Shown: piece by piece, positions 10,567 through 18,820 of the stretch | Position numbering within the stretch: position 1 is the stretch's first letter | How the letters are laid out: each line of letters starts with the position of its first letter | Source: a virus | Length of the DNA stretch: 26,931 nt | Strand: one strand, 5' to 3' | IMG/VR virus record: IMGVR_UViG_3300030331_000140 | Coordinates: 1-26,931 of that record | Made by a program: the position numbers and the translations under genes | Notes under the pieces: model-generated | What the model saw: the letters and a program-made list of their open reading frames with translations, nothing else | What the model was told of the DNA's origin: nothing | Databases searched by the model: none

Positions 10567-10647
10567 TGTCTGTCCTCCTTGTGTTACTTCATGAGGGTGC
10601 ATCTACTTGGGAGGTTTTCAGATACACCCACAAAAAGTAACTTGATT

Positions 10648-10678
10648 AGTATAGTCACACCCTGAACCCATGCGTCAA
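10648..10678 (-). promoter_or_regulatory. candidate leftward early promoter
   Basis: Read leftward, TTGACG (10678-10673), 19 bases, then TATACT (10653-10648). Each hexamer is 5/6 to sigma70 consensus but the spacing is long. It points at the first leftward gene (start 10566). One arm of the inverted repeat at 10657-10665 lies between the two hexamers, which suggests operator control. Confidence 0.42.
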
Positions 10679-10717
10679 GAGCGCAAGAATAGGTTGGCCT
10701 ATCTTAGCTCAGGGTGT
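10657..10717. repeat. 9-bp inverted repeat over leftward promoter
   Basis: ACACCCTGA (10657-10665) and TCAGGGTGT (10709-10717) are perfect complements 43 bases apart. Between them lies a smaller hairpin, ATAGG-TTGG-CCTAT (10689-10702). One arm lies inside the candidate promoter, so it may be a paired operator, or an RNA fold if a transcript starts further upstream. Confidence 0.5.
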
Positions 10718-10962
10718 AACCGAATAGTCACAATCTGTTAGCTCTAACGTGTGCACATCTGTGTACTGTGCATAGTAACCACCCTTTAAGAGCACCCTAT
10801 AGCCAGGCATAAATATACCAGTCCTGGCCTTGCAGGTTAGCCCATGCAATTAAGCAAAATCGGCAAGATACGTTCATCACGAGTATACTATCAGGCATAC
10901 TAGCTGTCTTAAGTTATTCTATAATCGTTATTCGTTGTTTGTGTTTCTTTCTAGTTAGTTTG

Positions 10963-10986
10963 TAGTCGTTTAGTCGTTTAGTTATT
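10963..10986. repeat. short tandem repeat TAGTCGTT
   Basis: TAGTCGTT at 10963 and again at 10971, followed by a degenerate TAGTTATT at 10979; related TAGTTAGT and CGTTATTCGTT lie just upstream. The 8-bp periodicity is iteron-like but only two copies are exact. Confidence 0.45.
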
Positions 10987-11130
10987 TGATAGGGCGTTTC
11001 ACCGTATCCGTCTGAAGGTGTCTGCATCTAATCAAGATCAAGAGTTTTTAAACTTACTTTGACTAGAAGTTTTACGCTTCCGATGAAACTACGATAACCC
11101 GAACATTAATTGGATTGCAATAGTTTTTTT

Positions 11131-11195
11131 GCAGATTGTGTGCAGATTGTAGTTAAGCTATTGATATTAAATAAAAAGAATTTGCAGATTGTGTG
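11131..11195. repeat. three copies of GCAGATTGT
   Basis: GCAGATTGTG at 11131 and 11184, and GCAGATTGTA at 11142. The first two start 11 bases apart, close to one helical turn. It is adjacent to the palindrome cluster and AT-rich DNA, so an initiator or regulator binding site is plausible. Confidence 0.55.
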
Positions 11196-11216
11196 AAAAT
11201 AGTATGTATATCAATA

Positions 11217-11305
11217 TTTGTGATCACAAAAGGTGTGTGTGTATGTGCATCGTATGGGGTGTATTTGTGATCACAGCTATAGGGGTATGCTTTTTTGTGA
11301 TCACA
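11217..11305. promoter_or_regulatory. three TGTGATCACA palindromes (operator cluster)
   Basis: The 12-mer TTTGTGATCACA begins at 11217, 11264 and 11294. The first copy is a perfect 14-bp palindrome (TTTGTGATCACAAA, 11217-11230). Centres are 47 and 30 bases apart. Each contains GATC. The cluster suggests binding sites for a dimeric regulator or replication protein. It differs from a CRP site, which has six bases between TGTGA and TCACA. Confidence 0.62.
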
Positions 11306-11552
11306 TTACAACTATTGAAGCTATATCAGTAGCAAAACATAGCAAAAACAATAGTTTATATGTTAAATTAATAGCTAAAACTAATTTAGAATAGTTCTAA
11401 AAGTAAAAACCACATTAAAAAACCCATAAAAACAAGGCATATGACATTTTATTTATAGGGTACAGGCGTGGGCCACGGTGGGGGTATACGTTATACGTAT
11501 ATGTACAAATACACACACGAGGTTTTTTCACTGAGTTACGCAACGTAAACTG

Positions 11553-11580
11553 TTGACAGGCTCTTGACAGTGGCTATAAC
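11553..11580 (+). promoter_or_regulatory. candidate rightward promoter P1
   Basis: TTGACA (11553-11558), 16 bases, TATAAC (11575-11580). The same hexamers and spacing recur before the capsid gene at 23995, which strengthens the call. A second TTGACA overlaps the spacer at 11564. Palindromes AACATTAATGTT and GTTAAACATT lie just downstream and may be operator sites. Confidence 0.58.
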
Positions 11581-11598
11581 TATGGGGGACTAGGGGGC

Positions 11599-11671
11599 AT
11601 GTTAAACATTAATGTTATTACATAACAAAGATAATTAAATATATATCATATAAACATTAAATGTTTAACAT
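11599..11671. repeat. inverted and palindromic ACATTAATGT-type repeats
   Basis: ATGTTAAACATT (11599-11610) is repeated inverted as AATGTTTAACAT (11660-11671). Embedded are AACATTAATGTT (11605-11616, perfect palindrome) and AAACATTAAATGTTT (11652-11666, near-perfect). A further CATTAATG lies at 11729, within the second promoter. The spacing around two promoters suggests a repressor operator set. Confidence 0.55.
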
Positions 11672-11688
11672 AGGGGTAGCTATCCCCT
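11672..11688. other. short hairpin AGGGG-loop-CCCCT
   Basis: AGGGG (11672-11676) and CCCCT (11684-11688) pair across a seven-base loop, TAGCTAT. There is no following T-run, so it is not an obvious terminator. It lies between the two candidate rightward promoters and would be transcribed from the first. Confidence 0.35.
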
Positions 11689-11713
11689 ATACTAGTAACG
11701 ATAAGAAAAGTTG

Positions 11714-11743
11714 TTGACACTTTTCAAGCATTAATGTTACACT
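11714..11743 (+). promoter_or_regulatory. candidate rightward promoter P2
   Basis: TTGACA (11714-11719), 18 bases, TACACT (11738-11743). The -10 is 4/6 to consensus. A CATTAATG element lies inside the spacer. Transcription would start near 11750, giving a leader of about 160 bases that contains the 14-bp inverted repeat before the first late gene. Confidence 0.45.
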
Positions 11744-11788
11744 TACGTTAGTTACAAACAATATAATAACTATACAACTTTTTGTAGC

Positions 11789-11880
11789 TACGTGTGTAGA
11801 CTGTCTGTGTAAGTTTAAACCACAGTGTCTCCTCCTCCCTCTATGTAGTTTGTACTTAGGACTGGTAGTCTACACACGTA
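11789..11880. repeat. perfect 14-bp inverted repeat in late leader
   Basis: TACGTGTGTAGACT (11789-11802) and AGTCTACACACGTA (11867-11880) are perfect complements enclosing 64 bases. An inner hairpin CTGTG/CACAG (11805-11809 with 11821-11825) encloses the palindrome GTTTAAAC. In RNA this makes a long branched stem-loop just before the first rightward gene. In DNA it could be a paired protein-binding site. The loop is longer than a typical recombinase core. Confidence 0.62.
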
Positions 11881-11913
11881 TTTGTTGTAGTTTATGTAAA
11901 GTTTTTCTTGACA

Positions 11914-16576: not shown

Positions 16577-16948
16577 ATGACAAGAAATTTAACTGAGAAG
16601 CAACAAAAGTTCCTTGAGGTTTTGTTTGACGGTGCAGGTGGCGATGTTGTACAAGCTAAGAAACTAGCAGGGTACGGTGATGGCACTAGCACTACATCTA
16701 TTGTAGAATCATTGAAAGATGAGATAGGTGACAGAACACGTAGTTACTTTGCACGTACTGCACCTAAAGCTGCTATGGCTATGGTAGGTGCATTAAGTGA
16801 TCCTACAGAACTAGGCATACGAGATAAGATGTCAGCAGCTAAAGACTTACTTGATCGGGCAGGACTAGGTAAAGTAGAAAGAGTAGATGTATCGTCATCT
16901 AGCGGTGGCGTATTTATACTACCATCTAAAGAAGGGACAAACGAATAG
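16577..16948 (+). CDS. terminase small subunit
   Basis: A 123-residue protein with an N-terminal HTH-like DNA-binding block (LTEKQQKFLEVLFDGAGGDV, then AKKLAGYGDGTSTTSIVESL) typical of small terminases, and a helical middle (RTAPKAAMAMVGALSDPTEL, then KDLLDRAGL). It would recognise packaging DNA and regulate the large subunit. It lies directly upstream of the large terminase region. The ATG immediately follows the preceding stop codon. The terminal VFILPSKEG is a tail I have seen in small terminases. Subfamily is inferred. Confidence 0.82.
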   Translation: MTRNLTEKQQKFLEVLFDGAGGDVVQAKKLAGYGDGTSTTSIVESLKDEIGDRTRSYFARTAPKAAMAMVGALSDPTELGIRDKMSAAKDLLDRAGLGKVERVDVSSSSGGVFILPSKEGTNE

Positions 16949-17370
16949 CTAAATACCGTGAGTCATTAGGATACTGGGAATTACCTAAACCACACAAGGG
17001 TGCAGAAAAAGATTGGCACATAATAGCTAGAGTAACTAGGACAGTGCCTTTCGGATATAAAGTGCATCCTGACAATGACAAGATACTTGAGCCTATTGTA
17101 ACAGAGTTAGAAGCATTAGAGCTTGCAAAGAAACATCTTATGCAGTACTCTTACAGAGAAGTAGCACTGTGGTTAACAAAACAAACAGGTAGGTACATAT
17201 CTGATACAGGGCTAAAGAAAAGAGTAGACATTGAGCGAAAACGTAAGAAAGCAGCTACAATTAAACGGAAGCTTGCCCAAAGGCTCGAAGAAACGCTACA
17301 AGAAATCAAGAAGCTTGAAGAAGAATGTATCGGAGCCTACACAAGCAGAGCCAACGAAGCAAGAGCCTGA
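16945..17370 (+). CDS. ORF between small and large terminase, no ATG start
   Basis: An open frame (141 residues from ATA 16945, or 109 from GTG 17044). It contains LGYWELPKPHKGAEKDWHII, RTVPFGYKVHPDNDKILEPI and AKKHLMQYSYREVALWLTKQ, then TGLKKRV and a Lys-rich helix (ERKRKKAATIKRKL). The QYSYREVALWLTKQTGRYIS region resembles a resolvase-like HTH. Protein-like sequence continues upstream of the only GTG, but no ATG exists; ATA 16945 overlaps the TerS stop as ATAG and is preceded by AGGGAC. Start and unit are uncertain. It may be a terminase accessory, or fused to TerL by recoding. Confidence 0.6.
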   Translation: MAKYRESLGYWELPKPHKGAEKDWHIIARVTRTVPFGYKVHPDNDKILEPIVTELEALELAKKHLMQYSYREVALWLTKQTGRYISDTGLKKRVDIERKRKKAATIKRKLAQRLEETLQEIKKLEEECIGAYTSRANEARA

Positions 17371-18820
17371 AGTAGAAGTTGTAGCAGCAGAAGTCAAAGC
17401 ACCTGAGTTTGACGTTGATATTGCACAGGAAATAGTATTTAAACCAAACCCAGGTCCACAGACAAACTTCCTATCCGCATCTGAAAGGGAAGTTTTGTAC
17501 GGTGGGGCGGCTGGCGGTGGTAAAAGTTTTGCGATGCTGGCTGACCCACTTCACGGTTTAAATGATTCTAACTTCAGTGGTCTACTTGTTCGCCATACTA
17601 CTGAGGAACTTAGGGAACTTATACAGAAAAGCCAAGAACTTTATCCTAAAGCTATTCCTGGCATCAAGTGGAGCGAACGTAAGTCACAGTGGATTGCACC
17701 TAGAGGCGGTAGACTGTGGATGTCGTACCTCGACAAAGACATGGACGTAACACGATATCAAGGTCAAGCGTTTAACTGGATTGGCTTTGACGAACTTACA
17801 CAGTGGCCTACACCCTACGCTTGGGATTATATGAGGTCACGACTTCGTTCAGCATTTAGTTCTCAGCTAGGTTTGTATATGAGAGCTACGACAAACCCTG
17901 GCGGTAATGGACACCAGTGGGTCAAGAAAATGTTTATTGATCCTAGCCCTCCTAACGATTCATTCTGGGCAACAAATATTGAGACAGGAGACACGATAAA
18001 GTTTCCTAAAGGGCATAGTCGAGAAGGACAGCCCTTGTTTAAACGTAGGTTCATACCAGCTAGTTTATTTGACAATCCATATTTGTCAGACAGTGGTGAT
18101 TACGAAGCAATGTTATTATCATTGCCTGAGCATCAAAGAAAGCAATTACTAGATGGTAACTGGGACATAAACGAAGGAGCAGCATTTCCTGAATTTGATA
18201 GAAGCATACACGTTGTGGAGCCATACGATATTCCAAGATCTTGGGCTAGATTTAGAGCTTGCGACTATGGTTACGGCTCCTACACTGGAGTCTTATGGAT
18301 TGCTGTTTCACCAAATGAGCAATTGGTTGTCTACAGAGAGCTATATTGTTCTAAGATTACAGCTACAGATTTAGCGGATATGATTATAGAAGCTGAATCA
18401 AATGATGGTACTATGAGATACGGTGTGTTGGATTCATCCCTCTGGCATAAAAGAGGTGACACTGGCCCATCACTTGCAGAGCAAATGAACATGAAGGGAT
18501 GCAGATGGCGTCCTTCAGATCGCTCTCGTGGTTCTAGGGTTGCTGGTAAGAACGAAATGCATCGTAGGTTGCAGGTGGACGAGTTCACTGAGGAGCCTAG
18601 ACTCGTGTTCTTTTCCACCTGCACGAACACTATAGCACAAATACCAGCTATTCCGTTAGACAAGAAAAATCCTGAAGATGTAGATACAAATTCTGAAGAT
18701 CACTTGTACGATGCACTACGTTACGGTATAATGACTAGACCAAGAAGTTCTATATGGGATTATAATCCTGCAACCCAACGCTCTGGCTTTCAAATGTCAG
18801 ACCCTACTTTTGGATATTAA
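17315..18820 (+). CDS. terminase large subunit (start uncertain)
   Basis: An ATPase/nuclease that pumps DNA into the capsid. Walker A is GGAAGGGKS (residues 63-71 of this start), the Walker B region is FNWIGFDELTQW, and the coupling motif is ATTNPGG. The C-terminal RuvC-like nuclease has ACDYGYGSY, GVLDSSLWHKRG and EDHLYDALRYG, which carry the three acidic positions. N-terminal PNPGPQTNFLSASEREV precedes the ATPase. The frame has no ATG or GTG upstream of the ATPase: only TTG at 17231, 17273 and 17315. I report 17315 (501 residues); the extra N-terminal bases overlap the previous ORF. The activity is certain from motifs; the start is not. Confidence 0.9.
   Translation: MKKNVSEPTQAEPTKQEPEVEVVAAEVKAPEFDVDIAQEIVFKPNPGPQTNFLSASEREVLYGGAAGGGKSFAMLADPLHGLNDSNFSGLLVRHTTEELRELIQKSQELYPKAIPGIKWSERKSQWIAPRGGRLWMSYLDKDMDVTRYQGQAFNWIGFDELTQWPTPYAWDYMRSRLRSAFSSQLGLYMRATTNPGGNGHQWVKKMFIDPSPPNDSFWATNIETGDTIKFPKGHSREGQPLFKRRFIPASLFDNPYLSDSGDYEAMLLSLPEHQRKQLLDGNWDINEGAAFPEFDRSIHVVEPYDIPRSWARFRACDYGYGSYTGVLWIAVSPNEQLVVYRELYCSKITATDLADMIIEAESNDGTMRYGVLDSSLWHKRGDTGPSLAEQMNMKGCRWRPSDRSRGSRVAGKNEMHRRLQVDEFTEEPRLVFFSTCTNTIAQIPAIPLDKKNPEDVDTNSEDHLYDALRYGIMTRPRSSIWDYNPATQRSGFQMSDPTFGY

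Follow-up and report, generated by a model that had tools for sequence, protein, structure and literature searches.

The window analysed here, the whole stretch of 26,931 bases, is a virus record of the HMO-2011 type whose nearest named phages are the roseophages CRP-603 and CRP-2. Its terminase module is homologous to that of HMO-2011-type phages and has the same gene order: the small terminase (TerS), a middle open reading frame (ORF) and the large terminase (TerL) lie in consecutive order, the reading frame switches each time, and this order is seen again in relatives. The last codons of TerS hold both the ribosome-binding site and the start of the middle ORF. The features of the locus are as follows.

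16577 to 16948, + strand: TerS, small terminase, with an ATG start and a TAG stop (16946-16948); matches PHROG 2538, terminase small subunit (E = 1.3e-4), and is annotated as TerS in CRP-2 and CRP-603
16928 to 16935, + strand: AAAGAAGG, a Shine-Dalgarno (SD)-like element within TerS, 9 nt before the ATA and unchanged across all 108 distinct loci of the ATA class
16945 to 16947, + strand: ATA, the putative start codon of the middle ORF, overlapping the TerS stop as ATAG
16945 to 17370, + strand: middle ORF between TerS and TerL, 141 aa; its frame opens at 16930 and it stops at a TGA (17368-17370)
17231 to 18820, + strand: TerL, large terminase, with a conserved TTG start; matches PHROG 979 (E = 1e-54) and PF03237
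17231 to 17370, + strand: out-of-frame overlap of 140 nt between the 3′ end of the middle ORF and the 5′ end of TerL, of similar length in relatives

Elsewhere in the window, a 1.3-kb stretch (10603-11907) between divergently oriented modules lacks any canonical-start ORF of at least 60 aa. An Rfam search of the window, this stretch included, gave no match.

The sequence features described in the original prediction are real, including a TerL frame in which TTG is the only candidate start before the Walker A region. This frame opens after a TAG at 17225-17227, and the GGKS motif is preceded by TTG codons only (17231, 17273, 17315 and one more adjoining Walker A). The earliest start codon of the TerL frame is TTG at 199 of the 210 distinct loci compared. 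ATG occupies the homologous position in the distant HMO-2011, CRP-1 and CRP-345; the aligned N-termini read TMSEEEKTKL in CRP-345 and TLSENVRKQL in the window. The conserved TTG at 17231 is the sole oddity of TerL, and it is an ordinary, accepted alternative start. Unusual initiation had been proposed for both genes, and the proposal is supported for the middle ORF (ATA) but not for TerL. It had also been suggested that the ORF and TerL might be fused by a prfB-like +1 slippage at GCC TGA A, a candidate that was rejected on comparison with homologous phages. The codon preceding the ORF stop varies among relatives (GCC, AGT, GAG, AAC and others), as does the length of the overlap (between about 116 and 176 nt); moreover, upstream of this site there is already a conserved start for TerL. 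The likeness to prfB-type recoding goes no further than the sense codon and TGA with which the ORF ends, whereas neither the site nor the sequence is conserved here. Recoding into TerL is neither needed nor indicated.

The middle ORF is without a canonical start near its N-terminus, as originally noted. The accompanying statement that the frame holds a single GTG at 17044 and no ATG was mistaken, as there is a second GTG at 17062 and an ATG at 17140, although both sit well within the conserved part of the protein. Start codons were compared across 203 distinct loci, most of them retrieved by protein-similarity searches with the ORF alone (the best 80 loci per search), together with the window and annotated phages. 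Loci from a pattern scan that selected for AATAR were excluded both from this tally and from the conservation statistics. An in-frame ATA at -4, overlapping the TerS stop as ATAA or ATAG, with no ATG, GTG or TTG between -30 and +9, is found in 111 of the 203 loci, which share ancestry and do not amount to 111 independent events; on the tree, whose backbone is weakly supported, the ATA loci fall into about four deep clades. A further 91 loci have no in-frame ATA, and in these the protein begins at a canonical start; the ATA and a canonical start occur together nowhere (0 of 203).

Among the 92 loci outside the ATA class, 80 have a canonical start between -30 and +9 (ATG at -8, -11, +2, +3 or +6, GTG at +6, TTG at +0, and a few others). 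Ten have other sequence separating TerS from the ORF, which then has its own ATG at or near the protein N-terminus, one (HTVC033P) has an ATG slightly farther upstream, and one (L345) has the ATA junction followed by a 1-nt insertion. When homologues with an ATG start are aligned, their N-termini fall no more than a few residues from the ATA, which is the only near-cognate codon common to all ATA-class loci. No second copy of the ORF was found in trans in the 9 virus records tested, each of which holds one copy, so that no canonical copy acts in trans there. Neither the window nor 50 kb of CRP-207 contains a phage tRNA that might explain the reading of AUA. These comparisons strongly support the earlier proposal that the ATA overlapping the TerS TAG is the likely start of the ORF.

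Constraint on the junction was assessed in 108 distinct ATA loci that had been retrieved without selecting for the junction itself. TerS third codon positions show 7.3 changes on average in this set, as against zero at the AAA, GAA, AAC and GAA/CAA codons near the TerS stop. Three other degenerate TerS columns elsewhere are also unchanged, so the signal is the cluster and not any single column. The final TerS codon is GAA in 104 loci and CAA in 4, and the A of the ATA is thus kept even when the residue changes. Within the ATA class the bases AAA GAA GG are frozen, as is the AAC between the SD and the ATA. This AAC avoids AATGA, that is, an out-of-frame ATG at -8; relatives with the ORF in that other frame have AAT GAR TAG, and that ATG is their start. 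The clade that starts at ATG +2 has GAG as its final TerS codon (26 of 26), and with it the ATA is lost. TerS stops of the ATA class are TAA or TAG and never TGA, which would make an ATG, although few such changes would be expected, given the 5 TAA/TAG changes seen in the unbiased set; the stops of TerL and of the ORF in the same loci are often TGA. Predicted pairing to the anti-SD has a mean of -6.1 kcal/mol in the ATA class versus -3.2 kcal/mol in the class with ATG at +2, and the stronger predicted pairing with AUA is in line with compensation.

Within the ORF itself, the pN/pS ratio in the ORF frame is 0.41 for codons 1-30 and 0.25 for codons 31-75; the alternative frames give about 0.9 or more. 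Over codons 1-30, three groups gave 0.41, 0.22 and 0.13 in the ORF frame, as against 0.9 to 2.7 when read in either alternative frame; purifying selection on the N-terminal region is confined to the ORF frame. Evolutionary comparison shows which start codon is present, which frame is constrained and what is conserved. It also suggests a history in which an ancestral ATG at -8 was followed by a downstream frame change and then by an ATA 4 bases on, with the SD kept.

Two loci, L179 and L180, have an unchanged TerS end and ribosome-binding site but a junction that reads GAATGA. Here the ATG is the start of an inserted gene of 56 aa; the ORF, farther on, begins at an ATG of its own. The junction therefore looks like a start position, which is AUG when a different gene follows. 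The 56-aa insert between TerS and the ORF (708-878 in L179), with its use of the TerS-end ribosome-binding site and an ATGA start, was observed in L393-L395 as well.

The AlphaFold2 model of the middle-ORF protein (mean pLDDT 77) has small strands, two helices and a long helix, a predicted layout of beta strands, helix-turn-helix-like helices and a long C-terminal helix. In Foldseek the model matched homologues from phages; weaker matches were to the portion of large serine recombinases that binds DNA (E of 0.16 at best in PDB, and 0.035-0.07 for annotated recombinases in BFVD). No clear family emerged from Pfam or PHROG, where PHROG 95 (integrase) was found in 2 of 18 members with a best E of 3.6e-4 and other matches were weak, and a sequence search against solved structures gave no match to the ORF protein. 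It is reasonable to view the protein as a putative DNA-binding packaging accessory.

Several explanations that dispense with an AUA start were weighed against these observations. The first has ribosomes slipping into the -1 frame where TerS ends, which would produce a TerS-ORF fusion and make a start codon unnecessary. It accords with the position of the ORF in the -1 frame of TerS in the window's clade, with a frame that is open across the junction, and with the SD-like element upstream. However, the junction has no slippery heptamer, and the -1 frame has a stop one or two codons before the ATA in 29 distinct loci: in 7 of these a TAA directly precedes CGA ATA, and in 22 more the frame opens one codon earlier. 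Slippage in the 7 loci would need the GAA next to the stop, and tRNA-Glu cannot re-pair with CGA, while for a slip on AAC the base to be re-paired varies (A, G or T). Moreover, relatives with the ORF in other frames start at a plain ATG, and frameshifting does not predict the exchange of ATA for ATG. Fusion of TerS and the ORF by frameshifting is considered unlikely, with a small chance of being correct.

Initiation at a downstream GTG, TTG or ATG would give a shorter protein, and this is how the gene appears in GenBank for CRP-207, where the annotation of gp62 (MZ892987.1 48065-48480; L004 1866-2285) begins at an internal ATG and gives 52 aa. In CRP-207 the conserved frame extends about 87 codons upstream to an ATA (about 139 aa), a gap left unannotated; AUA is missing from the starts that gene finders use as standard (ATG, GTG, TTG), with the result that a conserved gene is truncated in public records. 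The window offers the GTG codons at 17044 and 17062 for such a start, and in HTVC104P the homologue starts near the PFGYK motif. Against this, the offset of the first canonical codon takes about 25 different values, from 14 to 263 nt, and the pattern scan supplied 13 distinct loci whose entire 122-138 codons contain neither ATG nor GTG nor TTG. The purifying selection on the N-terminal 30 codons, which the ATG starts of other relatives include, likewise makes a downstream start very improbable.

Some phages have pac sites within their terS genes, and the conserved block of about 20 nt might be a DNA signal of this kind to which the start of the ORF is incidental. Such a site would not predict that ATA is lost (to GAG) exactly where an ATG at +2 is gained, or that the choice between AAC and AAT tracks the frame of the ORF, and as a sole explanation it is scarcely credible. 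The same bases may have a DNA-level role in addition to that of an AUA start. Indel or assembly errors, raised in the original prediction and favoured only by the fact that single-base changes could restore an ATG, are effectively excluded by the recurrence of the arrangement, the frames and the missing canonical start, beyond chance or error, in the isolate genome of CRP-207 and in more than 100 distinct, independent contigs from many metagenomes.

Taken on the sequence comparisons, the middle ORF is very probably translated from an AUA that shares bases with the TerS stop (AUAR) and is served by an SD within TerS. The AAAGAAGG element in the last TerS codons, 9 nt upstream, would place the initiator tRNA on the AUA, and ribosomes finishing TerS probably help initiation there. 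AUA is a weak start in bacteria. Its pairing with the initiator tRNA is imperfect, and for this reason low, fixed expression of the small DNA-binding-like packaging protein is to be expected. SD-directed and possibly TerS-coupled initiation at AUA, with low yield, is the most economical reading; we infer from it actual initiation at this codon, coupling to TerS translation and a dose-limiting purpose. The question of whether the lineage is locked into AUA as a dose limiter, with selection holding AUA against AUG, is evenly balanced. Were the TerS stop to change from TAA to TGA, an AUG would arise with TerS unaltered, and on the dose-limiter reading AUA would be kept because the protein must stay scarce or respond to IF3 levels.

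Very few AUA starts are known from bacteria or their phages, and searches of the open-access literature turned up none reported from the terminase region of a phage. That a large group of marine phages has apparently kept an AUA start over long evolution suggests that the protein is deliberately made in small amount. These phages form a natural set in which AUA, AUG, GUG and UUG serve one protein with differing SDs, and in it the idea that the start codon and the SD coevolve to keep expression constant can be put to the test.

Among the HMO-2011-type phages (CRP-207, CRP-603, CRP-2 and HMO-2011), the TerS-ORF-TerL order and the proteins are shared with the window. Ordinary ATG starts do occur in homologues, for TerL in the three distant phages named above and for the ORF in HMO-2011, CRP-1 and CRP-2, but ATA is kept in CRP-207 and in the window's close relatives. 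The geometry of the junction is identical to that of the 4-nt ATGA stop/start overlaps of translational coupling, with an SD in the upstream gene; here AUA replaces AUG and the coupling is putative. The infC gene of E. coli (encoding IF3) and IS911 have AUU starts, and the likeness is an AU-N start that limits initiation, in IS911 also within overlapping genes. These cases differ in using AUU rather than AUA and in serving IF3 autoregulation or a frameshift partner, of which there is no sign here. The closest experimental precedent for AUA with a strong SD is S. aureus ccpN, which together with infC and citZ starts with AUA, while cvfC1 starts with AUU; the AUA starts are conserved, have a strong SD and were found experimentally to yield about 10% of AUG in poor medium (PMC13009471). 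As in this set, in which the AUA or AUU start is conserved in several genes behind a strong upstream SD, the phage locus has a conserved AU-N start without a canonical N-terminal start and a strong conserved SD at suitable spacing, the pairing being moderate rather than extended. The S. aureus set comprises host genes with measured translation, whereas the present case is a phage gene with an AUAR overlap that is recognized by comparison only.
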